From Candidatus Cetobacterium colombiensis (GTDB taxonomy: Bacteria > Fusobacteriota > Fusobacteriia > Fusobacteriales > Fusobacteriaceae), in assembly GCF_033962415.1 (NCBI RefSeq), contig NZ_JAVIKH010000006.1:62001-126000 (forward strand): 64,000 nucleotides of DNA. The letters run 5' to 3'. The stretch's first letter is position 1; each line of letters opens with the position of its first letter. The translations under genes and the position numbers were made by a program. Of this stretch, positions 7,833 to 24,185 are shown one piece after another. The notes beneath the pieces are model-generated. The model had not been told where the DNA came from and searched no databases. It saw nothing but the letters and a program-made list of their open reading frames with translations.

Positions 7833-9452
7833 CTATTTTTTTGCGAATATATAATCATCTAAAAGGTTTCTCATTTTTATAACTCTTCCACCATAAACTA
7901 TGTGAATGTTATGAGCATCTGGAATAATTACTCCATTTGGTTTAGATTTTTTTATTAAATCTTGATTAACCTTTGAACTATCTTTTAATTCTATTCTAAG
8001 TCTTGAAATACAGTTATCAACTTCAACTATATTCTCTAATCCACCTAGTCCTTCTATCATAGTTTCAGCTAAACTATCCACTGGTGCATTATTTTTTGAA
8101 TCTGAAGAACTTTCACTCTCATCTTCAGAATCTTTAAAGTCATCCTTATTTCTTCCTATTGTTAAAACATTAAACTTTTTTATTATAAACACATAAGTGA
8201 AATAATAGATTAAGAAGAAAATTGGTCCAATTATTAAAAATACATACCATTTTGTATCTAATCCTTGTAAAGTTCCAAATACAAACCAGTCAATTATTCC
8301 ACCTTGGATATTACCAATTTTTACTCCTAATATAGCTGGCACTAAAGTTGATAGTCCTGCTAAAATTGCATTTGCAATCCATAGTATTGGAGATATAAAA
8401 ATATATGTAAACTCAATTGGCTCTGTAATTCCAGTTAAAACAACTGCTGTTAAACCAGGAATAAAGTATTTTAATAATTTTTCTCTTTGCTCTGGTAAAG
8501 CACATTTGTATAGTGCAAATACCACTGCTGGCATTCCAAATACCATGTGAAGTATTCTTCCTTGAGCTAGGTACTGAGTTGCCTTTGCTGAAAATGGTAA
8601 ATGATTTTCAAGTTGAGAGAAATATATATTTAACGCTCCCACTTGAGTATGTCCTGCTACACTTTCCACTCCCCCTAAAGCTGTAAATCTAAACGCTTGG
8701 TTTAAAATGTGGTGTAACCCTGTTGGATTAATAGCTTTTTCTAAGAATCCGTATAAAAATGCTCCTGCTATATTAAGCTTTGCAATTCCAGTTCCTAAAG
8801 TCATAATTAAACTATTTATATATGGCCATATATAAACTAAAGCCATTCCTACAAAAGGCATAATTAATGCACAAGCAATTGGAACAAATCTTTTTCCACT
8901 ATAAAAAGTAAGCGATGGATGTAGTTCAACTTGTCTAAATCTATTGTGAATAGCTATTGCAAATAGACCTGCTATCATTCCACCAATAACATTCATGTTA
9001 TATACAAAAACACCTAAAACATTTGTAAATTGAGAACTATAAAGGGTTGCATCAACTGCTGAATAGTTGTCATGCTCCATTAAATATTTTATTGATGTTG
9101 TTGTTGGAGTAAACCCTTGAACTCCTAGTATATAACTCATTCCAACTAACATAGCTATATAACCAACAACAGATGAATAAACTGCCACTTCTTTATCTCT
9201 TTTTACAATTCCTAATGGTATAGCCATTGCAAAAAGTAGTGGTAACTGAGCAAAAGGAATTCCAGCTAATCTTCTAATGAAACCTAAAAACCCTTGAATT
9301 CCTTCACCTTTTAGAAAAGGTAAAAACCCTATTATAACGGGATTTTGAAGGGCTGCTGACAGCCCCAAAAATATCGCCATAAATGATAATATTGAAATTG
9401 GAAACAGTAATGTTTTTCCAAAACTTTGTAGATCTTTTTTTAATTTTTCCAT
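7833..9452 (-). CDS. PTS glucose-superfamily enzyme IICB, probable mannosylglycerate or alpha-mannoside transporter
   Basis: This 539-residue protein has a IIC membrane domain with YSGKRFVPI, NPTGLHHILNQAFRFTALGG and TGITEPIEFTYIF, an acidic Ser/Asp/Glu-rich linker (about 430-452), and a C-terminal IIB domain with the phospho-Cys481 in EVDNCISRLRI. It has no IIA domain. The gene follows the GH38 gene by 22 bases and so is the last gene of that operon. In E. coli the matching transporter MngA is a fructose-type IIABC, so a glucose-type IICB here would be a replacement. The substrate is inferred from the neighbouring enzymes. Confidence 0.85.
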   Translation of the reverse strand: MEKLKKDLQSFGKTLLFPISILSFMAIFLGLSAALQNPVIIGFLPFLKGEGIQGFLGFIRRLAGIPFAQLPLLFAMAIPLGIVKRDKEVAVYSSVVGYIAMLVGMSYILGVQGFTPTTTSIKYLMEHDNYSAVDATLYSSQFTNVLGVFVYNMNVIGGMIAGLFAIAIHNRFRQVELHPSLTFYSGKRFVPIACALIMPFVGMALVYIWPYINSLIMTLGTGIAKLNIAGAFLYGFLEKAINPTGLHHILNQAFRFTALGGVESVAGHTQVGALNIYFSQLENHLPFSAKATQYLAQGRILHMVFGMPAVVFALYKCALPEQREKLLKYFIPGLTAVVLTGITEPIEFTYIFISPILWIANAILAGLSTLVPAILGVKIGNIQGGIIDWFVFGTLQGLDTKWYVFLIIGPIFFLIYYFTYVFIIKKFNVLTIGRNKDDFKDSEDESESSSDSKNNAPVDSLAETMIEGLGGLENIVEVDNCISRLRIELKDSSKVNQDLIKKSKPNGVIIPDAHNIHIVYGGRVIKMRNLLDDYIFAKK

Positions 9453-14158: not shown

Positions 14159-15085
14159 TTAAAATTTTGATTTGATTTCTTCAATCATTTTGTTTGTTGA
14201 ATTTAAACCACCTGTTGCAGTATACCAAACCTCAGAATCTAAAAATACAATATTTCCATTTTGCCAAGCTTTTGTGGCTTTAACAATATCATTATCAAAA
14301 GCTTTATTTGCTGAAACATCTCCTCCAACAACTGCAGCTCTATCAACGATAAATATATAATCTGGATTTTTCTCTAAAATATATTCAAAATTAATTTTAC
14401 TTCCATGTGTAGAAGCTGTAATATTTTCAATTGATTTAAATCCAAAATAATCATATATTATTCCAAATCTTGATTTTAATCCATAAGCTGATAACTTTCC
14501 ATTATTTGAAAGAATTACCAATGCATTTAAGTTCTTTTCTTGAACTTTTTCTTTTATATTTTTTAAAGTTTCTTCAATTTTTTCCATTTGATTTCCTAAT
14601 ATCTCACTTTTATCAAATATATTTCCAACAGTTTCTAAATTAGTTTTCAGTGATTTAATATAGTCTTCACCATTTGTTTTTAAAGCTACTGTTGGTGCAA
14701 TTTTTGACAGTTGATCATAAAAAGGTTCTTGTCTTCCTGAGATTATTATTAAATCTGGTTTTATCTCATATAATTTTTCTAAATTTGGCTCTTTTAAACT
14801 TCCAACATTTACATATTTATTATCTGAATATTTTTCTAAATATTTTGGTAATGCCTCTTTAGGTAGCCCTGTTATTTCAACTCCTATATTGTCTAAAACA
14901 TCCACTATTCCATAATCAAAAACTACAACTTTTTTTGGATTTTCTACAACTTCTGCTTCACCCATATAATGCTCTATTTTTATCTTGTTTGTATCTATTT
15001 TTTCTGAATTTTTTGGTGATATATAATAAATAACTCCACATACAAAAGCTATAAATAAAACAAACACTTCTAATATTTTTTTCAT
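14159..15085 (-). CDS. iron-siderophore ABC transporter substrate-binding protein (YclQ/FatB/CeuE-like)
   Basis: Start at 15085 (MKKILEVFVLF) gives the best spacing from the AGGAGG at 15090-15095; longer frames overlap the ATPase gene. The 308-residue protein has an N-terminal hydrophobic export segment without a clear lipobox, then a class III binding-protein fold. Family features include VVVFDYGIVDVLDNIGVEI, KPDLIIISGRQ near 110 and a long helix linking the lobes. It would bind an Fe(III)-siderophore in the periplasm and deliver it to the permease pair encoded by the two genes that begin this operon. It is the last gene of a four-gene unit starting at 17757. Confidence 0.87.
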   Translation of the reverse strand: MKKILEVFVLFIAFVCGVIYYISPKNSEKIDTNKIKIEHYMGEAEVVENPKKVVVFDYGIVDVLDNIGVEITGLPKEALPKYLEKYSDNKYVNVGSLKEPNLEKLYEIKPDLIIISGRQEPFYDQLSKIAPTVALKTNGEDYIKSLKTNLETVGNIFDKSEILGNQMEKIEETLKNIKEKVQEKNLNALVILSNNGKLSAYGLKSRFGIIYDYFGFKSIENITASTHGSKINFEYILEKNPDYIFIVDRAAVVGGDVSANKAFDNDIVKATKAWQNGNIVFLDSEVWYTATGGLNSTNKMIEEIKSKF

Positions 15086-15093
15086 CATTCCTC

Positions 15094-15849
15094 CTAGAAA
15101 TATATACATATATTCTTATTATTAATTTCTTTTACTTCTATTGACATTTCATAAAGTTTTTCCAACTTCTCTTGTATAACTATATTTTTAGTTTTATCCA
15201 TATGTTTTAATTTTCCATTTTTCATAGCTAATATGTAATCTGAATAAACTGAAGTAAAGTTTATATCATGCATTACAATTACAATAGTTTTCTTTAACTC
15301 TTTAACTAATTTATGTAAAATTTTCATCATTTGAACAGCACTTTTCATATCTAAATTATTTAAAGGTTCATCTAGTAATATATATTTTGTATTTTGAGCT
15401 ATTGTCATAGCAATATATGCTCTTTGTCTTTGACCACCACTTAACTCATCTAAATACTTATCTCTAAACTCCTTTAAATTCATATATTCCATAGCTTCTT
15501 CTATTTTTTCTTTATCCTCTTTTGTCAACTTCCCATTACTGTGAGGAAATCTACCAAAAGAAATCAATTCGTAAACTGTTAGCTTTATATTTGTAGAGTT
15601 ATCTTGCTTTAACGTTGCTACTGTTTTAGCTAATTCTGTTTTATTCCAATCTTCAATATTTTTTCCATCTATTTTTATTTCACCAGAATCCCACGGTGTA
15701 AATCTACTTATCATATTTAATAATGTACTTTTTCCAGCTCCATTTGGACCTATTATACATGTTATTTTCTCTTCTGGTATCTCTGTAGTAACATCTTTTA
15801 CAACATAATTTTCTCTATATTTTTTGCTTATATTTTTTATCTCTATCAT
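15094..15849 (-). CDS. iron-siderophore ABC transporter ATP-binding protein (YclP/FatE-like)
   Basis: This 251-residue ATPase has Walker A GPNGAGKST near residue 34, signature LSGGQRQR near 137, Walker B YILLDEPL and the switch His in VIVMHDINF. The Q-loop region TLKQDNS matches the FepC/FecE group, which serves siderophores, heme and cobalamin. Its start overlaps the preceding permease stop by 4 bases, showing coupled translation. Confidence 0.9.
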   Translation of the reverse strand: MIEIKNISKKYRENYVVKDVTTEIPEEKITCIIGPNGAGKSTLLNMISRFTPWDSGEIKIDGKNIEDWNKTELAKTVATLKQDNSTNIKLTVYELISFGRFPHSNGKLTKEDKEKIEEAMEYMNLKEFRDKYLDELSGGQRQRAYIAMTIAQNTKYILLDEPLNNLDMKSAVQMMKILHKLVKELKKTIVIVMHDINFTSVYSDYILAMKNGKLKHMDKTKNIVIQEKLEKLYEMSIEVKEINNKNICIYF

Positions 15850-16814
15850 CTAACTTTCCTCTCTTTTAATAAAATACTCAATAAATAAATTCCACCTACA
15901 AAATTAATAATCGTTCCCACAGGAAAACTATTATTAAATATTTTCTCCACCAATAATTGTCCTGAAATTAAAAAAACTATACTTAGTAAAGTTGATGAAA
16001 GAATAAGATATCTGTGTTTATAAGTTTTTAAAATCTCTTTTGAAATATTTACTGTTAACAGGCCTAAAAACATCACTGGACCTACTAAAGCTGTTGAAAT
16101 TGAAACTAAAATTCCAACTAAAGTTAATTTTTTTCTCAATAGCTTTTTATAATCTAGTCCTAAATTAATTGATTGATTGTAACCTAAACTCATAACGTCT
16201 AGTTTTACAATATCATTTTTTAGCCAAAGTAATGAAACCCCTAAGATTCCATAAGCTATTGCCAATAAAGTTGTATTAACTTTACTATAACTAGCAAACA
16301 ACGAACTTTGAAGTATTAAGAACTCATCTGGATCCATAATCATTTGAATTCCATTGGATAAACTATCTAAAAATGTTCCAACTATCATTCCTATTAGAAT
16401 CATATACAAAAGTTTTCCTTTACTTTTATTCGTAAAAAATTTTTGTAAAAGAATACTTACTAAAATCATAAAAAATGTTGTTATCATAAATTTTGGCACA
16501 CTTTCTAATAATACTGGTAATTTTCTTTTAAATACAAAGATTAATAGTGTTTGTAAAAAAACATACATTGAATCTAATCCCATAACACTTGGCGTTAATA
16601 TTCTACTATCTGTTACTGTTTGGAATATCAATGTTGAAACAGCTATACATGTACCACTTAATATCATTGATAATAATTTTATTCCCCTTGTAGAGATTAA
16701 ATATTGGGCATTATTTTTATTTATACCTATAAACAGAAATATACTTATTGCAATAAGTAAAACTATTAGTAATAAAAATAGCCTATTTTCTATTTTTTTT
16801 TCTTTATGATTCAA
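15846..16814 (-). CDS. iron-siderophore ABC transporter permease (YclO/FatC-like)
   Basis: The 322-residue, roughly eight- to nine-span protein belongs to the FecCD/BtuC permease family. It carries SVMGLDSMY near 95, the cytoplasmic coupling stretch LDVMSLGYNQSINLGLDY near 205 and a final VGGIYLLSILLKERKVR. It overlaps the start of the ATPase gene and is itself overlapped by the first permease gene by 11 bases. The two permeases would form a heterodimer in the inner membrane. Confidence 0.88.
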   Translation of the reverse strand: MNHKEKKIENRLFLLLIVLLIAISIFLFIGINKNNAQYLISTRGIKLLSMILSGTCIAVSTLIFQTVTDSRILTPSVMGLDSMYVFLQTLLIFVFKRKLPVLLESVPKFMITTFFMILVSILLQKFFTNKSKGKLLYMILIGMIVGTFLDSLSNGIQMIMDPDEFLILQSSLFASYSKVNTTLLAIAYGILGVSLLWLKNDIVKLDVMSLGYNQSINLGLDYKKLLRKKLTLVGILVSISTALVGPVMFLGLLTVNISKEILKTYKHRYLILSSTLLSIVFLISGQLLVEKIFNNSFPVGTIINFVGGIYLLSILLKERKVR

Positions 16815-17757
16815 AATTTAACCTCCTAAATATCATTCCTAAAAATATTCCACTTCCTAAAATTCCTGTTATTAAACCAATTGGAATTTCATGAGGATAA
16901 ATAACCCATCTACCTAAAATATCACAAGCTAATAGAAAGAAACTTCCTAAAGCTCCTGTTGTATATATACTTTTTGATAGATTATCACCTCTATACATTG
17001 AAACAATATTAGGAATTATTAGACCTAAAAATGGAATTCCACCTATTGTTATCATAACTAAAGATGAAATTATACAAACTAATATCAAACCTAAATTTAC
17101 AATCATTTTATAGTTTAAACCTAAATTTACTGCAAATTCTTCTCCCATTCCAGAAATTGTAAAATGTTTTGAATATACAAATGCCAATATTACTAAAGGA
17201 ATTGTTAAATAAAGTAATTCATAATTCCCCTTTAAAACACCAGAAAAATCACCAAATAGCCAACTATTTATACTCTGGATTAAATCTCCTTTATACGCAA
17301 AAAACATTGTTAAAGAACTTAGAATTCCACTGATCATAATTCCTATTAACGGTACTAAGGCATTGTCTTTTACATTTATTTTTCTAACTATACCTAGAAA
17401 TAAAAATGTTCCTCCTATTGCAAAAATTGTTGCTATTAACATCTTAAAAATTATCGATTCTTTTGGAAAAAATAGTAACGCAACAAGAATTCCCAATTTT
17501 GAAGAATCTGCCGTTCCAGCTGTTGTTGGTGATACAAATTTATTCATTGTAAGTTGTTGCATTATTAATCCACATATACTCATTCCAAATCCAGCAGTTA
17601 CAATACTAATTGTTCTAGGTATTCTACTTAATAAAAAAATAGTATTACTGTTGCTTCCTTGAACAAATAAATCTTCTAAGCTCATAGTTGCAACTCCATA
17701 AAATATTGATATTATTGATAAAATTATAATTAAAATTGATATAATAACATTATTCAT
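16804..17757 (-). CDS. iron-siderophore ABC transporter permease (YclN/FatD-like)
   Basis: The 317-residue FecCD-type permease is the first gene of the four-gene transporter operon. Family features include SRIPRTISIVTAGFGMSICG near 43, SPTTAGTADSSKLGI near 76, SGMGEEFAVNLGLNY near 200 and GGIPFLGLIIPNIV near 245. Ribosome site AAGGAGAA precedes the start. The promoter region upstream carries two inverted repeats, one shared with the TonB receptor and esterase promoters. Confidence 0.88.
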   Translation of the reverse strand: MNNVIISILIIILSIISIFYGVATMSLEDLFVQGSNSNTIFLLSRIPRTISIVTAGFGMSICGLIMQQLTMNKFVSPTTAGTADSSKLGILVALLFFPKESIIFKMLIATIFAIGGTFLFLGIVRKINVKDNALVPLIGIMISGILSSLTMFFAYKGDLIQSINSWLFGDFSGVLKGNYELLYLTIPLVILAFVYSKHFTISGMGEEFAVNLGLNYKMIVNLGLILVCIISSLVMITIGGIPFLGLIIPNIVSMYRGDNLSKSIYTTGALGSFFLLACDILGRWVIYPHEIPIGLITGILGSGIFLGMIFRRLNFES

Positions 17758-17772
17758 TTATTCTCCTTGAAA

Positions 17773-17842
17773 ATATTTTGTTTAACAAAATATATTATAC
17801 CAATAATTTTCATATTGTCAATCAACAAGTTGTAATTGCAAC
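17773..17842 (-). promoter_or_regulatory. promoter and operators of the siderophore ABC operon
   Basis: On the minus strand -35 TTGACA (17816-17821) and -10 TATAAT (17794-17799) are 16 bases apart. A perfect 10-1-10 inverted repeat, ATATTTTGTT-T-AACAAAATAT (17773-17793), covers the likely transcript start. A second repeat, GTTGTAATTGCAAC (17829-17842), sits just upstream of the -35 and matches the GTTGCAAATGCAAC motif at 20489 with two changes. Confidence 0.75.
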
Positions 17843-17846
17843 TAAT

Positions 17847-17881
17847 TAAAAAAAGAGATTAGAATTAACCAATCTCTTTTT
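17847..17881 (-). terminator. terminator after the TonB receptor
   Basis: On the minus strand AAAGAGATT pairs with AATCTCTTT around a 10-base loop, followed by a T run, just past the receptor stop codon. Confidence 0.75.
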
Positions 17882-17886
17882 GTTTA

Positions 17887-19842
17887 TTAGAATGTAAGCT
17901 TAGCTCCCATAAAGAAATTTCTTCCTGGAGCTGGTCTTGCTACGTCTTTTTTCTCTACTAAATTATAATGCTCATCAAATATATTATTTATTCCAGCTTT
18001 TACTGTAAAATCTGGTGTCACTTTATATCTTAAAGCTAAATCAACAGTGTTGTAAGATTTATTTTTTATTCCTTGAGCAATCTTATCTCCCACATATAAA
18101 TATGTCACTGTTCCATCTAATTTAGTTGTGAATTTATAATTAGCACCTATATTTAATTTAACTCTTGGAACCTCTTCTAATCTATCTCCATCATTACTTT
18201 CACCATCTTGTACTGCATTAATATAAGTTATTCCCTCTGTTAATGTTAAGTTTCCAAAATAATTTTCTATATTTAGTTCAATTCCATCTCTAGTTGTTTT
18301 ATTAATATTATTCCATGTTATATTGTCATTATCTATTTTTGTTTTTGATATCTCTTTATCTTTATTTATTTTAAAGAAACTTAAAGAAGCAAAAGTGTTA
18401 TCTAAAATATAATCTTTTATTCCAATTTCAAAAGTATCAGATGTTTCTGCTTGAACATTATTAAAAGAAAGTAATCCATCAACTTTATCTGTCATCTGCC
18501 CTGGCGTTGGGGACATATATCCCTTTTCATATCTAAAAAATACATTTCCTGTATCTCTATATTTATAACTAATTACTCCTTCGTATGCTCTATTTCCATC
18601 ATCAATTTTACTTTGAGTACTTCCTTTGGAATCTTTTGTTTTTAAATCATATTTTGCCCATTCATATCTATAACCTAAAGTGAATTCTAATTTTTCTGTT
18701 AAGTTATATCTATTCAATACATAAGGTGATATTATATCTTTTTTATAATGGTTACTCGATTTTCCACTCTTTGCTGAAAGACTTTTTCCTTTGTAATCAC
18801 TTTCAATTGTATCTAATCCAACTATTAGACTTCCTTTTTCATAATTAACAACTGACTTTAAAAGCACTCCAGTTGTATTTTCTTTTATATCTTCTGTTGA
18901 AACTGTAGGCTTTGATTTAGAATAGTCTGTTGATACTCCATCATTTTCTATTTTATTATTATAAATCGTTGTAAATAAATTAAATGTTTTATTTGGAGTA
19001 AATTCATATTTACCTATGATACTTTCCCTTGTAAATTTTGTGTCTGAATACACTTTTCCAGGTGCTTTTCTATCTTCTTCTAAAATAATTTTTGAAGCTC
19101 CATCTGTATCTTTTTCATTTTCTACAAATCTTGATCCTTCTAATTTAAATTTATGAGCATCAGATAATTTATAAACTAAATTTCCATCTATAAAATCATT
19201 TGATAGTTTCTCCTCTTTTCTATATCCATGATTGTTTTGTCCAGAGTAATTCACTCCAAAACTTAATTTATCGTTTATATTATAGTTACCTCCAGCAGCA
19301 ACTCTTTTACTATTATATGAAGAATAATCACTTTCTACGTATCCTCCATTTTTCGTATTATCTTTCGTTATAATATTTACAACTCCACCAGAAACTCCAT
19401 TTCCATATAAAACAGCTCCTCCACCAGGTGCAATTTCTATTCTTTCAATGTTACTTACTGGAATAGAATTTATAGACAATGATTTATTAAAAGCATTCAG
19501 TGGATTTATAGCCACTCCGTCTAATAAAACTTTTACATTTGACAATGCTGCATCTCCACTACCTCTCATATCTATTACTGGTCCATTTTTTGAGTAAACT
19601 ATATTTACATTTGGATTATCTTTTAATATATCCTCAACATTTTTATAATTTTTTTCTTCTATTTGTTCTTTAGATATCAACGCCACATTTGTTGCTTCAT
19701 CTAACAGAGTCATTTCTGTTCCAGTTGTAGAAATAACTGATTCTCCCAAATGAACTCCCTCTGAAAAAAACTCATCCTCTTGTAGTGTTGCTGCCATTGC
19801 TGATGCACAAATTAAAAATGATAAAATAGTAATTCTTTTCAT
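17887..19842 (-). CDS. TonB-dependent outer-membrane siderophore receptor
   Basis: This 651-residue protein has a signal peptide (cleavage after about residue 17, ASAMA), a plug domain from about 40 to 160 with VEDILKDNPNVNIV, DMRGSGDAALSNVKVLLDGV and IERIEIAPGGGAVLYGNG, and a 22-strand barrel domain ending in FFMGAKLTF with the C-terminal Phe. A classical TonB box is not obvious, although EGVHLGESVISTTG lies in the right place. It would import a ferric siderophore, heme or cobalamin-like ligand; the adjacent FecCD-type transporter favours a siderophore. Its promoter carries two inverted repeats. Confidence 0.92.
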   Translation of the reverse strand: MKRITILSFLICASAMAATLQEDEFFSEGVHLGESVISTTGTEMTLLDEATNVALISKEQIEEKNYKNVEDILKDNPNVNIVYSKNGPVIDMRGSGDAALSNVKVLLDGVAINPLNAFNKSLSINSIPVSNIERIEIAPGGGAVLYGNGVSGGVVNIITKDNTKNGGYVESDYSSYNSKRVAAGGNYNINDKLSFGVNYSGQNNHGYRKEEKLSNDFIDGNLVYKLSDAHKFKLEGSRFVENEKDTDGASKIILEEDRKAPGKVYSDTKFTRESIIGKYEFTPNKTFNLFTTIYNNKIENDGVSTDYSKSKPTVSTEDIKENTTGVLLKSVVNYEKGSLIVGLDTIESDYKGKSLSAKSGKSSNHYKKDIISPYVLNRYNLTEKLEFTLGYRYEWAKYDLKTKDSKGSTQSKIDDGNRAYEGVISYKYRDTGNVFFRYEKGYMSPTPGQMTDKVDGLLSFNNVQAETSDTFEIGIKDYILDNTFASLSFFKINKDKEISKTKIDNDNITWNNINKTTRDGIELNIENYFGNLTLTEGITYINAVQDGESNDGDRLEEVPRVKLNIGANYKFTTKLDGTVTYLYVGDKIAQGIKNKSYNTVDLALRYKVTPDFTVKAGINNIFDEHYNLVEKKDVARPAPGRNFFMGAKLTF

Positions 19843-19859
19843 AACCCCTCCTTATTTAG

Positions 19860-19899
19860 TTGCAAATGCAATTATATACAACCAAACTTTGGTTGTCAA
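19860..19899 (-). promoter_or_regulatory. promoter with two operators upstream of the TonB receptor
   Basis: On the minus strand a perfect -35 TTGACA (19894-19899) and -10 TATAAT (19871-19876) have a 17-base spacer. A 9-1-9 inverted repeat, ACAACCAAA-C-TTTGGTTGT (19878-19896), fills that spacer and reaches into the -35. TTGCAAATGCAA (19860-19871) overlaps the -10 edge and the start site. Occupation of either would block RNA polymerase, so this strong promoter is built to be repressed. Confidence 0.8.
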
Positions 19900-19942
19900 A
19901 CTTTTTTATTTGATATACTTTGTATTGCAATGTAATTTATTT

Positions 19943-19970
19943 TTGGAATAACTTATTTTTGGTGTATAAT
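19943..19970 (+). promoter_or_regulatory. promoter of the MarR-type regulator
   Basis: A -10 TATAAT (19965-19970) with -35 TTGGAA (19943-19948) and 16-base spacer places the transcript start near 19977, so an ATG at 19976 cannot be the start and 20003 is preferred. Confidence 0.6.
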
Positions 19971-20002
19971 AGGGTATGAAAATTGTTTTGGAGGAAAATC
20001 TT

Positions 20003-20437
20003 ATGAAGGAAACTATAGAATATGAAAATATCGGTAGATATTTTTCTCAAATGTATAGAAAAGGGCGTATATTTTATGCTCATGAATTAAAAAAGTTTGG
20101 TTTAGGATCTGGACAATCTATTTTTTTATTTCAGTTATATAAAAAAGATGGAGTAACACAAGATGAACTTGCTAACACCTTATATATTGATAAAGGAACC
20201 ACAGCAAGATCTTTAAAAACTTTAGAAAATCAAGGCTTTATAAAAAAAGAAAATTTAATTACTGATAAACGTTCAAATATAATCTATTTAACACCAAAAG
20301 CTCTTAAATTAGAAAAGGAAATTACAAACATTTTAAGAAAATGGGATAGTATACTTAGTTCATCTTTAAGCGAAGAGGAAAAAAACACTCTTCTTGTTCT
20401 ATTAAAAAAAATTTCTGATAGTAATGGCTTAAAATAA
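20003..20437 (+). CDS. MarR-family transcriptional regulator
   Basis: Start at 20003 (MKETIEYENIGRYF) follows GGAGG at 19990-19994, giving 144 residues, the usual MarR length. The winged helix is clear: DGVTQDELANTLYIDKGTTA, then RSLKTLENQGFIKK, then the wing TDKRSNIIYLTPKAL. The gene lies between the TonB receptor (divergent) and the esterase (same direction). Copies of a TTGCAAATGCAA-type repeat occur at both neighbouring promoters and at the ABC operon promoter, the symmetry expected for a MarR dimer. It is the likely local repressor; its ligand or metal is unknown. Confidence 0.88.
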   Translation: MKETIEYENIGRYFSQMYRKGRIFYAHELKKFGLGSGQSIFLFQLYKKDGVTQDELANTLYIDKGTTARSLKTLENQGFIKKENLITDKRSNIIYLTPKALKLEKEITNILRKWDSILSSSLSEEEKNTLLVLLKKISDSNGLK

Positions 20438-20488
20438 AAAGTATATACTTTTTGTATTTTTTATGTTACAATAAGTTTTATTAAAATC

Positions 20489-20502
20489 GTTGCAAATGCA
20501 AC
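20489..20502 (+). promoter_or_regulatory. inverted repeat upstream of the esterase lipoprotein
   Basis: GTTGCAAATGCAAC is a perfect 6-2-6 inverted repeat, 24 bases before the start codon and downstream of a possible -10 TACAAT (20467-20472). It repeats the 12-base core found at the TonB receptor promoter (19860-19871). Confidence 0.75.
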
Positions 20503-20525: not shown

Positions 20526-21521
20526 ATGAAAAATAAATTTATTTTAACATGTGCATTAACTGGTTCTATATTAACTGGATGTTCAACAGCTGAAAAAACT
20601 AATGGTTATTATGCTAAAAATGGTTGTTTTATAGAAACTGATTCAAAACCTATAATTGCAAGTAAAACATCTTTAGATACAAGCTATATAAAAACTAAAT
20701 ATTTAAACATTCCATATGAATCTATCCCTAATAGTCAAAAATTAGATATCTATCTTCCCAATGAAGGAAAAGGTCCTTTTCCAGTTATAATTGGAGTTCA
20801 TGGAGGTGGATTTAAATTTGGAAATAAAGATGGTGCTATGAACCAATCTATGGTCAATGGAGTTAAAAAAGGTTATGCTGTCGTGATGATTAATTATAGA
20901 TTAAGTGGCGAAGCTAAATTCCCTGCTGCCATTGAAGATTTAAAAGCATCAATTAGATATATTAAAGCAAATGCTAAAAAATATAATTTAAATCCCAATA
21001 AAGTTGCTCTTTGGGGAGCTTCTTCAGGAGGAAATCTTGTATCTTTAGCAGGAACTACTGGCAATAGAGAGATTTTTAATAATCCAAAACTTGGAAATGC
21101 TGGTGTTTCAACTGAAGTTCAAGCAGTTGTAGACTGGTTTGGACCTATTAATTTCTTAACTATGGATGAAGAATTTGTAGCTGAAGGAATAAAAGGACAG
21201 AATCATAATTCAGCAGATTCTTTTGAGTCTCAATATCTTGGAGAACAAATTACCAAAGTTCCTAATTTAGTAAAAGAAACAAATCCTGAAACGTATATTT
21301 CTAAAAATACTCCACCATTTTTAATAGAACATGGTACTGCAGATGTTTTAATTCCATATACGCAATCTATTAATTTTGCTAAGTCTTTAGAAAAAGTCAT
21401 TGGTAAAGATAAAGTGGAGTTAGTTCTTTTAAAATGTGCTGGTCATGGACAAGCTTCAGCTTTTGATACTGAAGAAAATTTAAAAATTGTTTTTAATTTC
21501 TTAGATAAAACCCTTAAGTAA
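20526..21521 (+). CDS. alpha/beta-hydrolase fold esterase lipoprotein
   Basis: The 331-residue protein begins with a lipoprotein signal ending SILTGC, so it is anchored in a membrane outside the cytoplasm. It has the hormone-sensitive-lipase-type layout: oxyanion motif HGGG (VHGGGFKFG), nucleophile Ser in WGASSGG, Asp in GTADVLIP and His in CAGHGQ. It stands alone after AAGGAGATG. Shared operator sequence with the TonB receptor and ABC operon suggests it works with them, for example hydrolysing an ester siderophore to release iron as Fes/IroE do, though those are not this exact subfamily. A general carboxylesterase role cannot be excluded. Confidence 0.85.
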   Translation: MKNKFILTCALTGSILTGCSTAEKTNGYYAKNGCFIETDSKPIIASKTSLDTSYIKTKYLNIPYESIPNSQKLDIYLPNEGKGPFPVIIGVHGGGFKFGNKDGAMNQSMVNGVKKGYAVVMINYRLSGEAKFPAAIEDLKASIRYIKANAKKYNLNPNKVALWGASSGGNLVSLAGTTGNREIFNNPKLGNAGVSTEVQAVVDWFGPINFLTMDEEFVAEGIKGQNHNSADSFESQYLGEQITKVPNLVKETNPETYISKNTPPFLIEHGTADVLIPYTQSINFAKSLEKVIGKDKVELVLLKCAGHGQASAFDTEENLKIVFNFLDKTLK

Positions 21522-21889
21522 ATAAATTTGTATTACATTGTATTACACTGCCTAAAAAACAAGTTTTACAGCGTTACACAACGTTTTTTTGCATATTGTA
21601 CAATTGTAAAATAAATTGAATTTGAACGCCTTCAATTCAGTTTAAGAGAGTCATTTTTCTGGACTTTTGTACGTAAAATAGTAAAACGGAGTTTATATCC
21701 TTATTTTTTATAACTAATACAACTAAAGTATCTATCCAAGGAACAAAAATTTGGTTTTATTGAATTTTCTATGCCTTTAATCAAAGGGATTATACTGGAA
21801 AACACTTCAATTTATAGGGTACTTTTTTTGTATTGTATGGTATATTATAGAAAAAAGAATCTATCATACATAATAAAGAGGTGGTTGGC
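21522..21889 (+). other. 368-base non-coding stretch before moeA
   Basis: No convincing gene is seen. It holds a perfect 10-base tandem repeat, a CGTT-ACAC-AACG inverted repeat (21572-21583) followed by a T run, and a hairpin-capable segment, GTATG...CATAC with TAGA...TCTA (about 21835-21871), just before the moeA ribosome site AGAGGTGG. The last may be a leader structure. I could not match it to the known Moco riboswitch. Confidence 0.5.
21528..21547. repeat. 10-base tandem repeat
   Basis: Two perfect head-to-tail copies of TTGTATTACA lie just after the esterase stop codon. Each contains the inverted core TGTA-T-TACA, so it may be a protein-binding site. Confidence 0.5.
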
Positions 21890-23104
21890 ATGGAACAAAT
21901 CAATTTAGAAAATGCAATTGAAATTTTATTAGAAAATGTAAAACCTTTAAAAGAGATTGAAGAAAAATATATTTTAGATAGTTTAGGATTTGTCTTAGCT
22001 GAAGATATTATTTCTCCACTAAATAATCCACCATTTAATCGTTCGCCATTAGATGGATTTACTTTCAATAACTTAGATACTTTAGGAGCTACAAAAGAAA
22101 ATCCCATCACTTTTAAAGTTATATCTGAAGTTTTTGCTGGAGATTTTTCAAAAGAAACTCTTAATCCAAAAGAAGCCTTTAGAATAATGACTGGAGCTCC
22201 TATTCCAAATGGATGTAATTGTGTTATAAAACAAGAAGAAGTATCCTTTGATGAAAACACTAAAGTTCTAGAAATTTATAGAGAATTAAAACCTTTTGAA
22301 AACTTTTGTTTTTTAGGTGAAGATCTTAAAGTTGGAGAGATTGTTGTAAAAAAAGGAGAGGTTATCACATATAATCATATTGGTGTTTTTGCATCGCTTG
22401 GAATTAATTTAGTTAAAGTTTTCAAGAAACCTAAAGTTGGTATTTTAAGTTTAGGAAGTGAACTAACTATGCCAGGAGAGCCCTTAAAAGAGGGGAAAAT
22501 TTTTAACAGTAATCTCTTTACTTTAATTAGCAAACTTAAATATTTAGGTGTTGAAGGAATTATGTATCCTCCTATGAGTGATGACCCTCTAACTGTAACT
22601 AATTTTATTTCTAAAGAATTAAAAAATTTGGATATTTTAATAACTACTGGTGGAGTTTCTGTGGGAAAAAAAGATATCATGCATGATGTAATTAGAGAAC
22701 TAGAAGCCAAAAGATTATTTTGGAAAATTAATATCCAACCTGGAACTCCAGTTTTAGCTTCAGTTAAAGATGAAAAACTAATACTTTCTCTTTCAGGAAA
22801 TCCATTTGCATCTTTAGTTAACTTTGAACTTTTAGGAAGACCTGTTCTTTCTAAAATGAGTCTAAACTCTATAAAAGAAACTTCAACAATTGATGGTATT
22901 GTTAGAGGAGAATTTAGTAAAAGTTCATCTAAAAGACGTTTTATAAGAGGGTATTTTAAAAATGGTGAAATATTTTTAAACAATAATAAACATTCTTCAG
23001 GTACAATATCATCTCTTATTGGAAAAAATGCCATTGTAGAAATTGCTCCTGGAACTCCTCAGTTAAAAGATGGAGATAAAGTGAAGGTGATTTTAATTGA
23101 TTGA
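21890..23104 (+). CDS. moeA: molybdopterin molybdenumtransferase MoeA
   Basis: Start at the ATG 21890 (MEQINLENA) is supported by AGAGGTGG upstream; a GTG at 21881 lies in that site. The 404-residue protein has the MoeA order: N-terminal SPLNNPPFNRSPLDGF, FRIMTGAPIPNGCNCVIKQE near 99, then the molybdopterin-binding domain with GILSLGSEL, ITTGGVSVGKKD near 250 and the SLSGNPFASLVNF segment, and a C-terminal barrel. It inserts molybdate into molybdopterin. It overlaps the next gene by 8 bases and sits upstream of a molybdoenzyme. Confidence 0.93.
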   Translation: MEQINLENAIEILLENVKPLKEIEEKYILDSLGFVLAEDIISPLNNPPFNRSPLDGFTFNNLDTLGATKENPITFKVISEVFAGDFSKETLNPKEAFRIMTGAPIPNGCNCVIKQEEVSFDENTKVLEIYRELKPFENFCFLGEDLKVGEIVVKKGEVITYNHIGVFASLGINLVKVFKKPKVGILSLGSELTMPGEPLKEGKIFNSNLFTLISKLKYLGVEGIMYPPMSDDPLTVTNFISKELKNLDILITTGGVSVGKKDIMHDVIRELEAKRLFWKINIQPGTPVLASVKDEKLILSLSGNPFASLVNFELLGRPVLSKMSLNSIKETSTIDGIVRGEFSKSSSKRRFIRGYFKNGEIFLNNNKHSSGTISSLIGKNAIVEIAPGTPQLKDGDKVKVILID

Positions 23105-24185
23105 TATTAAGGATATTAACGTTTTAATTTTAGCAGGTGGAAAAGGTAGTCGAATGAACTATTGTAACAAAGCCCTTTTAAAATACAATAATACAACATT
23201 TTTAGGTCATTTATCTGAGCTTTTCTCAGACTTTAGTAAAATATATCTTTCTTTAAATAGTTCTCAAAATATTATTACAGATTCTTTTATTAGAGTTGAT
23301 GATGACTTTAAAGATATCGGACCTATATCAGGGCTTTATAAAGGAATTTTAGAAAGTGATTTAGAATATATTTTTACAGTTCCTTGTGATGTTCCTAATC
23401 TAAATAAAGAATTTATAAACTATATCTCTAGTTTTGTATCTCCTTATTATGACGCTTTTATAGTTCGAGATAAAAATGGATTTATACATCCTCTTCTTGG
23501 AGTTTATAATAAAAGTTGTTTAAGTATTATTAAAGAATCTATTAAAAATGAGGACTATAAAATTTTAAATATAATTAATAAGTTAAATGTTAGATTTATA
23601 GATTTAAAATATACTATTTTTGATGATAACTATATATTAAAAAATATAAATACTTTTGAAGATTACAATACTTTAAATAAAAAAACAAAATTCTTTGCAG
23701 TTTCAGGTATTAAAAACTCTGGAAAAACAACTTTAATAACTAAACTTTTAGAAAAATTTAAAGAAAACAACTATAAAGTTGGAACTATCAAACATGATGG
23801 TCATGATTTTCAAATGGACAATCTTGATTCTGATACTGATAGACATATAAAATCTGGTGCTCAAGGAACACTTATTTTTTCAAAAAGCAAATATATGTTT
23901 TTAGAAAATTCTCTAGAAAAAGATTTAGATTTTTATTTGGATTTTTTTAAAGATTATGACTTTATAATTTTAGAAGGATTTAAAGGCAGTTCTTTTCCTA
24001 AAATAGAAGTGATTCGAAAAGAGATTTCTAATATCAGTCAATGTAATAAAGAAAATCTCCTTTTCTATGTTAGTGATTTAAATTTTATTGAAAATAATGA
24101 AAATTTAGATATTTTAGACATTAATGATATTGATAGTATTTTAAAAAAAATAAAAAGCTTTCTAAAAAAAGATGACCTTGCTTAA
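23097..24185 (+). CDS. mobAB: MobA-MobB fusion for Mo-bis-MGD cofactor synthesis
   Basis: The start is a TTG at 23097 (IDIKDINVLILAGG), behind GAAGGTGA and overlapping the end of moeA. Residues 1-190 are a MobA nucleotidyltransferase with LILAGGKGSRMN and PCDVPNL near 100. Residues 200-362 are a MobB P-loop protein with GIKNSGKTTLITKL, VGTIKHDGHDF and a final LEGFKGSSFPKIEV. MobA attaches GMP to molybdopterin, and MobB assists with GTP. Fusions exist in other bacteria. A diverged second copy lies at 62200-63285. Confidence 0.9.
   Translation: MIDIKDINVLILAGGKGSRMNYCNKALLKYNNTTFLGHLSELFSDFSKIYLSLNSSQNIITDSFIRVDDDFKDIGPISGLYKGILESDLEYIFTVPCDVPNLNKEFINYISSFVSPYYDAFIVRDKNGFIHPLLGVYNKSCLSIIKESIKNEDYKILNIINKLNVRFIDLKYTIFDDNYILKNINTFEDYNTLNKKTKFFAVSGIKNSGKTTLITKLLEKFKENNYKVGTIKHDGHDFQMDNLDSDTDRHIKSGAQGTLIFSKSKYMFLENSLEKDLDFYLDFFKDYDFIILEGFKGSSFPKIEVIRKEISNISQCNKENLLFYVSDLNFIENNENLDILDINDIDSILKKIKSFLKKDDLA

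Follow-up and report, generated by a model that had tools for sequence, protein, structure and literature searches.

A palindromic word shared by receptor, importer and esterase genes points to a putative MarR-controlled regulon for catecholate iron uptake in Candidatus Cetobacterium colombiensis

Organization of the locus

The DNA considered here is a 64,000-nucleotide stretch of the genome of Candidatus Cetobacterium colombiensis (contig NZ_JAVIKH010000006.1, positions 62,001 to 126,000 of the forward strand), referred to as the window. It carries a gene for a TonB-dependent receptor, an operon for an ATP-binding cassette (ABC) importer and a gene for a lipoprotein esterase, all grouped around a gene for a MarR-family regulator (Table 1). 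One palindromic word, GTTGCA-NN-TGCAAC, in which two six-base arms flank two free bases, occurs at the receptor gene, the ABC operon and the esterase gene, and again ahead of a second esterase gene elsewhere in the genome. Very probably the regulator encoded among these genes acts through this word as its switch.

A preliminary description of this DNA had reported three related strings at these places and proposed one operator common to the receptor, the ABC operon and the esterase. All three strings were confirmed at their coordinates, and the common operator was borne out and is conserved in a related cluster. The operator set proposed there holds for the three intergenic sites but missed the fourth, unlinked site before the second esterase of the BD-FAE family, and its picture of the ABC promoter holds for the site described but overlooked a second, older palindrome. 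The gene identities that it assigned are supported by matches to profiles and to solved structures.

Table 1. Features of the locus and of the unlinked esterase gene; positions are those of the window unless a contig or locus is named.
Feature	Position	Strand	Remarks
Substrate-binding protein, CeuE/YclQ type	14159-15109	-	
ABC ATPase	15094-15849	-	
FecCD permease 2	15846-16814	-	
FecCD permease 1	16804-17757	-	
Second palindrome ATTTTGTTTAACAAAAT	17775-17791		directly behind -10 of ABC promoter
ABC promoter	17794-17821	-	TTGACA-16-TATAAT; 12/12 consensus
Operator GTTGTAATTGCAAC	17829-17842		7 nt upstream of -35 of ABC operon promoter; one arm base off palindrome
TonB-dependent receptor	17887-19842	-	651 aa
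Operator GTTGCAAATGCAAT	19859-19872 (core 19860-19871)		overlaps last two bases of receptor -10 box
Receptor promoter	19871-19899	-	TTGACA-17-TATAAT; 12/12 consensus
marR promoter	19943-19970		TTGGAA-16-TATAAT
MarR-family regulator	20003-20437	+	144 aa; longer open reading frame opens at 19976
Operator GTTGCAAATGCAAC	20489-20502		upstream of esterase 1 gene, ahead of ribosome site; arms perfect
Esterase 1, BD-FAE (PF20434)	20526-21521	+	lipobox LTGC (by eye); triad S166/D273/H307
Fourth operator	C20:21346 (L061:8347-8360, G000:C20)		perfect; unlinked; upstream of second BD-FAE esterase
Esterase 2, BD-FAE	L061:8384-9382 (G000:C20)		47% identical to esterase 1; PF20434 228.5 bits

Distribution and conservation of the operator word

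The genome to which the window belongs (G000; 2.8 Mb) was compared with that of a sister species (G004), whose MarR ortholog is 83% identical. A near-match was defined as a sequence with at most one mismatch to GTTGCA-NN-TGCAAC, and sites were sorted into coding and intergenic by our own caller of open reading frames (ORFs), with no annotation used. The three intergenic stretches of the locus (377 bp) hold three near-matches, where an order-1 Markov model fitted to the composition of these stretches predicts 0.0009. That background is too low, because the 18 near-matches seen in the whole genome are about ten times the 1.75 predicted, the excess being coding. With 18 near-matches in 2.8 Mb taken as the background rate instead, 377 bp would still be expected to hold only about 0.0024. 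Fourteen of the 18 fall within ORFs; the four between genes are the three sites described earlier and the one before the second esterase gene.

Since the motif was chosen from the window sites, the sister genome serves as an independent test. It carries the word again at all three window positions, and its unlinked second BD-FAE esterase gene likewise has an operator upstream (L190:6084). Its 20 near-matches divide into 16 within ORFs and four between genes, ahead of the same four genes as in G000. Twelve genomes of the genus contain 13 perfect sites in seven genomes, eight of them coding and five intergenic, and all five intergenic sites belong to this operator set, in G000 and G004. The preliminary description had named two findings that would tell against it, namely that the motif is equally common at unrelated loci or that it is not conserved in related clusters. 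Neither was borne out: when the genomes were searched, no other intergenic near-match appeared in G000 or G004, the word recurring in coding frames, and the G004 cluster carries the word at the same promoters.

The three sites are real and beyond chance, and the word is almost certainly one operator shared within one regulon. Between the two genomes the arm bases are kept at 11 of 12 positions in the ABC site and at 12 of 12 in the receptor, esterase 1 and esterase 2 sites; the rest of the respective intergenic stretch is 77%, 65%, 50% and 37% alike (gaps counted as differences). The conservation footprint at the two esterase sites is strong. The free bases are switched from AA to TT at esterase 1 and from TT to AA at esterase 2, which fits a symmetric site. 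The ABC operator in G004 has the perfect form GTTGCAATTGCAAC, and the sole arm departure in the receptor operator is one of the two bases that it shares with TATAAT. The sequences themselves show that the operator exists, where its four copies lie, that it is conserved and that it goes with the lineage carrying this MarR.

Several further observations on the word bear less directly on its role. The core also occurs exactly, as TTGCAAATGCAA, on the minus strand at 8366-8377, but within an ORF of phosphotransferase system type (7833-9452), for which reason this copy was set aside and is read as a coding chance. The looser pattern GTTGYAAWTGCAAC, with three mismatches, gives 65 matches in the window against 22 expected, with coding and non-coding matches not separated, and this bears little on function. 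A reversed-pattern control (2 vs 18 in G000 and 0 vs 20 in G004) was not used, because coding sequence biases it. An RNA element was rejected as the common role of the word, which lies upstream of the -35 at the ABC operon and overlaps the -10 at the receptor gene and is therefore not transcribed whole from these promoters.

The MarR regulator

No regulator gene other than that for MarR lies in the interval from 14.1 to 21.5 kb. A start at 20003 is likelier than one at 19976, because GGAGG precedes 20003 and the ortholog begins there. The product belongs to the MarR family by its winged-helix domain, which scores above the curated cut-offs (PF12802, 41.9 bits with a cut-off of 27; PF01047, 40.3 bits with a cut-off of 24.6), and it matches the solved structure 3s2w (E 5e-27). 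The best-scoring named family is BilQ (NCBIfam NF045593), at 90.1 bits and below the cut-off of 125, so that the protein is not assigned to it. OhrR and CatR are regulators of the thiol-sensing kind. The window protein has no Cys and the G004 ortholog has two, none of them conserved, which argues against thiol sensing of that kind.

Of the 98 phylum genomes searched, two encode a MarR protein of at least 80% identity, the same two that have the sites, and nine have a relative passing E 1e-16. The 5-2-5 core of the word resembles the 12-base, 5-2-5 operator consensus TTAGCAAGCTAA given for SlyA in one report (PMC5797941). The short palindromes sit at or beside the target promoters, where MarR may bind them. 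Place, shape and co-occurrence together make it very likely that MarR reads the operator word. The single MarR regulon of the preliminary description stands as far as the shared operator goes, and MarR as its binder is what we infer.

Receptor, importer and esterases

The best solved matches of the receptor are PqqU/YncD, CirA, PirA, FepA and other ferric enterobactin receptors. Its best matches in a plasmid collection are Cetobacterium and Fusobacterium records at about 30% identity, and the top match of the substrate-binding protein there is from Cetobacterium (66%). Within the spacer of its promoter lies a perfect 19-base palindrome, ACAACCAAACTTTGGTTGT (19878-19896), which is not kept in G004.

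The substrate-binding protein matches 8bf6 (E 7e-86), 8b7x and YclQ best, followed by CeuE (2e-61); 8bf6 and 8b7x we take to be CeuE homologues. The Fe(III) ligands of CeuE described in one account are His227 and Tyr288, and its contacts to the catechols are made by Arg118, Arg205 and Arg249 (PMC5382913). In an alignment whose numbering was fitted by residue spacing, the window protein keeps all five, that is, both iron ligands and the three arginines of the CeuE type. This speaks for ferric bis-catecholates, which are the kind of product yielded by ester cleavage of a tri-catecholate lactone. The protein does not belong to the SstD family (NF047879; 217 bits against a cut-off of 450). On the strength of these matches, a role of the locus in catecholate iron uptake is quite likely.

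Esterase 1 is a member of the BD-FAE family (PF20434, 229.3 bits against a cut-off of 26.8), with a GxSxG motif and with the triad S166, D273 and H307 invariant in six proteins; the Ser-Asp-His triad is kept in both esterases. A lipobox and a signal sequence, both read by eye, support the earlier view that the enzyme is extracytoplasmic. The 8 Pfam and 15 NCBIfam matches include no enterobactin-esterase family, and by sequence the enzyme is not placed with Fes, IroE, Cee or PfeE. A Paenibacillus esterase was seen at 55%. Window positions 21881-24185 hold a gene for MoeA, then a 362-aa ORF fusing MobA-like and MobB domains.

Promoters and additional palindromes

The midpoint of the ABC operator falls about 50 bases upstream from the presumed start, and in G000 and G004 alike 7 nt separate this operator from the -35. 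Behind the -10 of this promoter, the second palindrome is perfect over 17773-17793, with ATTTTGTTTAACAAAAT as its 17-base core. G004 has it as well, differing at one base, and in Cetobacterium somerae a form with other central bases occupies the same place, the MarR word being absent there. No other exact copy of ATTTTGTTTAACAAAAT was found in G000 or G004. The palindrome may be an older operator, for Fur or another regulator, or a leader hairpin.

A Fur box was sought by eye as a palindrome that the locus might share with the DNA preceding five other receptor genes, and none was seen; one of the five genes is inside an operon and one is behind a cobalamin riboswitch. That riboswitch (RF00174, 93.6 bits, L180:2854-3021 in G000:C9) precedes a TonB receptor which is probably a B12 receptor.

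Related loci with and without the regulator

The receptor is found at E <1e-140 in five of the 98 phylum genomes. In three genomes outside the genus (G023, G045 and G046) the receptor and the importer form one tight operon with a gap of 28-31 bp, and 18-20 kb around each of these operons contained no MarR ortholog, recognised esterase or near-match of the word. Upstream of the -35 before the receptor gene, the three MarR-less operons (L199, L200 and L147) have a conserved block, AAATAATAATTTTT, that is possibly an iron box; by eye, the window promoters are without it. In Cetobacterium somerae the ABC operon includes a binding protein at 66%, and in the 20.9 kb around that operon neither a receptor gene nor a MarR gene was seen, and neither a BD-FAE esterase nor the word. 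The MarR-less operons suggest that in the lineage of the window the operon was split, and that the word was combined there with the MarR gene and the esterase.

Other regulators and esterases of these genomes were considered as relatives of the cluster. In G045, the gene for a regulator of the HxlR family (PF01638; L199:15456-15806) follows the receptor-ABC operon at a distance of about 1.5 kb, and the word was not found there. G046 has three successive genes, for a MarR protein, a 54% esterase and, between them, a DUF6198 membrane-type protein (L177:8060-10299); this was rejected as the same cluster, since the MarR is a different one, the genes are far from the receptor operon and the word is missing. 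MarR relatives in G042 (45%) and G067 (43%) were likewise rejected, being unlinked and with the word absent in 17.8 and 19.5 kb. The same applies to five relatives (31-35%) in named genomes, within 4.5 kb of which no receptor gene or BD-FAE-like gene was seen by eye and no word was found at one mismatch of GTTGYAAWTGCAAC. Another MarR gene lies with genes for a metallo-beta-lactamase-fold protein and a BD-FAE esterase in G008 (L184), G006 (L185) and G004 (L186), the fold and esterase families having been scanned for L186 only. These esterases, at about 36% and beside other MarR genes, were set aside as they have no operator; the one exact match of the word in L186 is inside a coding frame. The adjoining of MarR genes and BD-FAE esterases thus seems to recur.

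Proposed mechanism and alternatives

The reading that we favour, and consider reasonably probable, is a regulon for the uptake of a ferric catecholate and for ester cleavage outside the cytoplasm, repressed by MarR and freed from repression by an aromatic product. A MarR dimer would sit on GTTGCA-NN-TGCAAC at the four promoters and would repress the TonB receptor, the CeuBCDE-type ABC importer, the lipoprotein esterase and the second exported esterase elsewhere in the genome. The receptor would take in a ferric catecholate ester, which may be a foreign enterobactin-type siderophore or another catechol ester. The esterases would cut the ester outside the cytoplasm to bis- or mono-catecholates, and the CeuE-like protein and the permeases would import the iron-loaded product. 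A cytoplasmic aromatic product might then release MarR, so that presence of the substrate would lead to production of the system. Binding by MarR, repression rather than activation, the substrate and the inducer are the steps that we infer. Repression is proposed because the receptor operator overlaps the -10 of a promoter with full consensus, an arrangement that hardly allows another reading. That an aromatic product would release MarR is suggested by precedents for SlyA, which one report describes as inhibited by 2,3-dihydroxybenzoate (PMC12506092), and for CatR, a MarR/DUF24 protein described as inhibited by catechols derived from bacillibactin (PMC6212828).

Several observations weigh against this reading. 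The full set is carried by only two genomes, so the co-occurrence of its parts amounts to one evolutionary event, which is the main weakness. Many MarR genes regulate themselves, and the marR promoter here is without a copy of the word, the nearest being that of the receptor, 70 bp upstream of the marR -35; the control loop need therefore not include marR. The ABC operator, upstream of the -35, fits repression less well, and the footprint at this site is weak because the whole ABC stretch is well conserved. The older palindrome behind the ABC -10 speaks against control by MarR only, and further control, possibly by Fur, is accordingly conceivable. As to substrate, the receptor scores nearly equally as haem type (173 bits) and as siderophore type (168 bits), and for none of the 25 NCBIfam families listed does its score reach the cut-off. 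The binding protein does not keep Lys121 and Gln98 of CeuE, and among solved structures the esterases best match an enzyme named as a lipase and some carbohydrate esterases or acetyl xylan esterases, none of them known siderophore esterases.

The same regulon could serve a catechol ester from plants or diet, such as chlorogenate, from which the BD-FAE esterases would free caffeate-like acids that would also be the inducers. The BD-FAE family is named after feruloyl esterases, and three of the four best solved esterase chains are carbohydrate or acetyl xylan esterases. One study describes Fe(III)-chlorogenate as being carried by the TonB receptors PiuA and PirA and as supporting growth of P. 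aeruginosa (PMC9426570), which makes a dietary ester the main rival substrate. Family names do not fix substrates, however, the binding protein is of the CeuE/YclQ siderophore type with the bis-catecholate pocket, and chlorogenate has a single catechol; a dietary substrate is judged rather unlikely. A different alternative is that the word is the operator of another regulator, Fur or a global factor, and that the MarR gene is a bystander. Iron genes are commonly controlled by Fur, the marR promoter has no word, and the case for MarR as its binder is drawn from sequence. A global factor, though, is a misfit for four intergenic copies per genome which all belong to this set. None of the five other receptor genes in G000 mentioned above has the word upstream, and intergenic copies occur only where this MarR occurs, all of which makes a bystander MarR unlikely.

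It is about as unlikely, or slightly more so, that MarR activates, or that it does both, repressing the receptor and esterases and activating the ABC operon from the upstream site. The distance of the ABC site from the presumed start and its constant gap to the -35 in both genomes would suit such a role, but activators do not usually sit at this spacing, and a promoter already at full consensus should need no help. Repeats that arose by chance or from coding constraints and have no function are highly improbable. The word does recur in coding DNA (14/18 and 16/20 near-matches in G000 and G004), well beyond the Markov prediction. Neither the Markov expectation nor that from the genome's own rate, however, accounts for three sites in the intergenic stretches or for arms kept where the flanks are 37-77% alike, and the recurrence at the same four promoters in two species in practice refutes chance.

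A bolder version of the MarR-repressed regulon is a tentative possibility. In one lineage of Fusobacteriota, a Ceu-type importer of ferric catecholate would have left its old single operon, been split and been joined to BD-FAE esterases at two loci under a MarR that senses the hydrolysis product of the ester, giving a substrate-induced, self-reinforcing circuit in place of iron-only control. The BD-FAE enzymes would then be a new family of esterases for siderophores or ferric catechol esters.

Relation to known systems and significance

Local MarR control of iron uptake is unusual but of a known kind. The enterobactin route of Campylobacter jejuni involves CfrA/CfrB, Cee, which cleaves enterobactin outside the cytoplasm, and CeuBCDE. 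The window system resembles it in combining a TonB receptor, an extracytoplasmic esterase and an importer of permease, permease, ATPase and binding protein, the last of which keeps the iron ligands of CeuE. It differs in having BD-FAE esterases, two of them, and a MarR-type operator; the enterobactin esterases of Campylobacter and Pseudomonas are of other families. The extracytoplasmic esterase step is also shared with the PfeA/PirA-PfeE system of Pseudomonas aeruginosa, in which expression responds to the substrate through two-component control. PfeE is presented in one paper as a periplasmic esterase that cuts a foreign catecholate siderophore (PMC8001512).

The regulator is of the same family as SlyA and CatR, of which SlyA has a 12-base, 5-2-5 operator and which respond to 2,3-dihydroxybenzoate or to bacillibactin catechols; CatR is assigned to the MarR/DUF24 branch in one source (PMC6212828). 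Unlike CatR, the window MarR is without a conserved Cys. CatR senses by Cys, and to our knowledge neither it nor SlyA runs a set of receptor, esterase and importer. BilQ is the named family closest by score, though below its cut-off, and has other gene neighbours. No account of this regulon was found among the titles and abstracts listed from an open-access library, which is not proof of absence. Siderophore uptake in Fusobacterium is little treated in that library, with no paper on the present subject by title.

The four sites, with the three regulator-less operons as a natural control, make MarR-run uptake of xenosiderophores directly testable. Sensing of 2,3-dihydroxybenzoate by SlyA raises the idea that a MarR protein may sense the aromatic fragment of the carrier. 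If the proposed reading is true, BD-FAE esterases, which are usually read as plant-polymer enzymes, would gain a possible role in iron acquisition.

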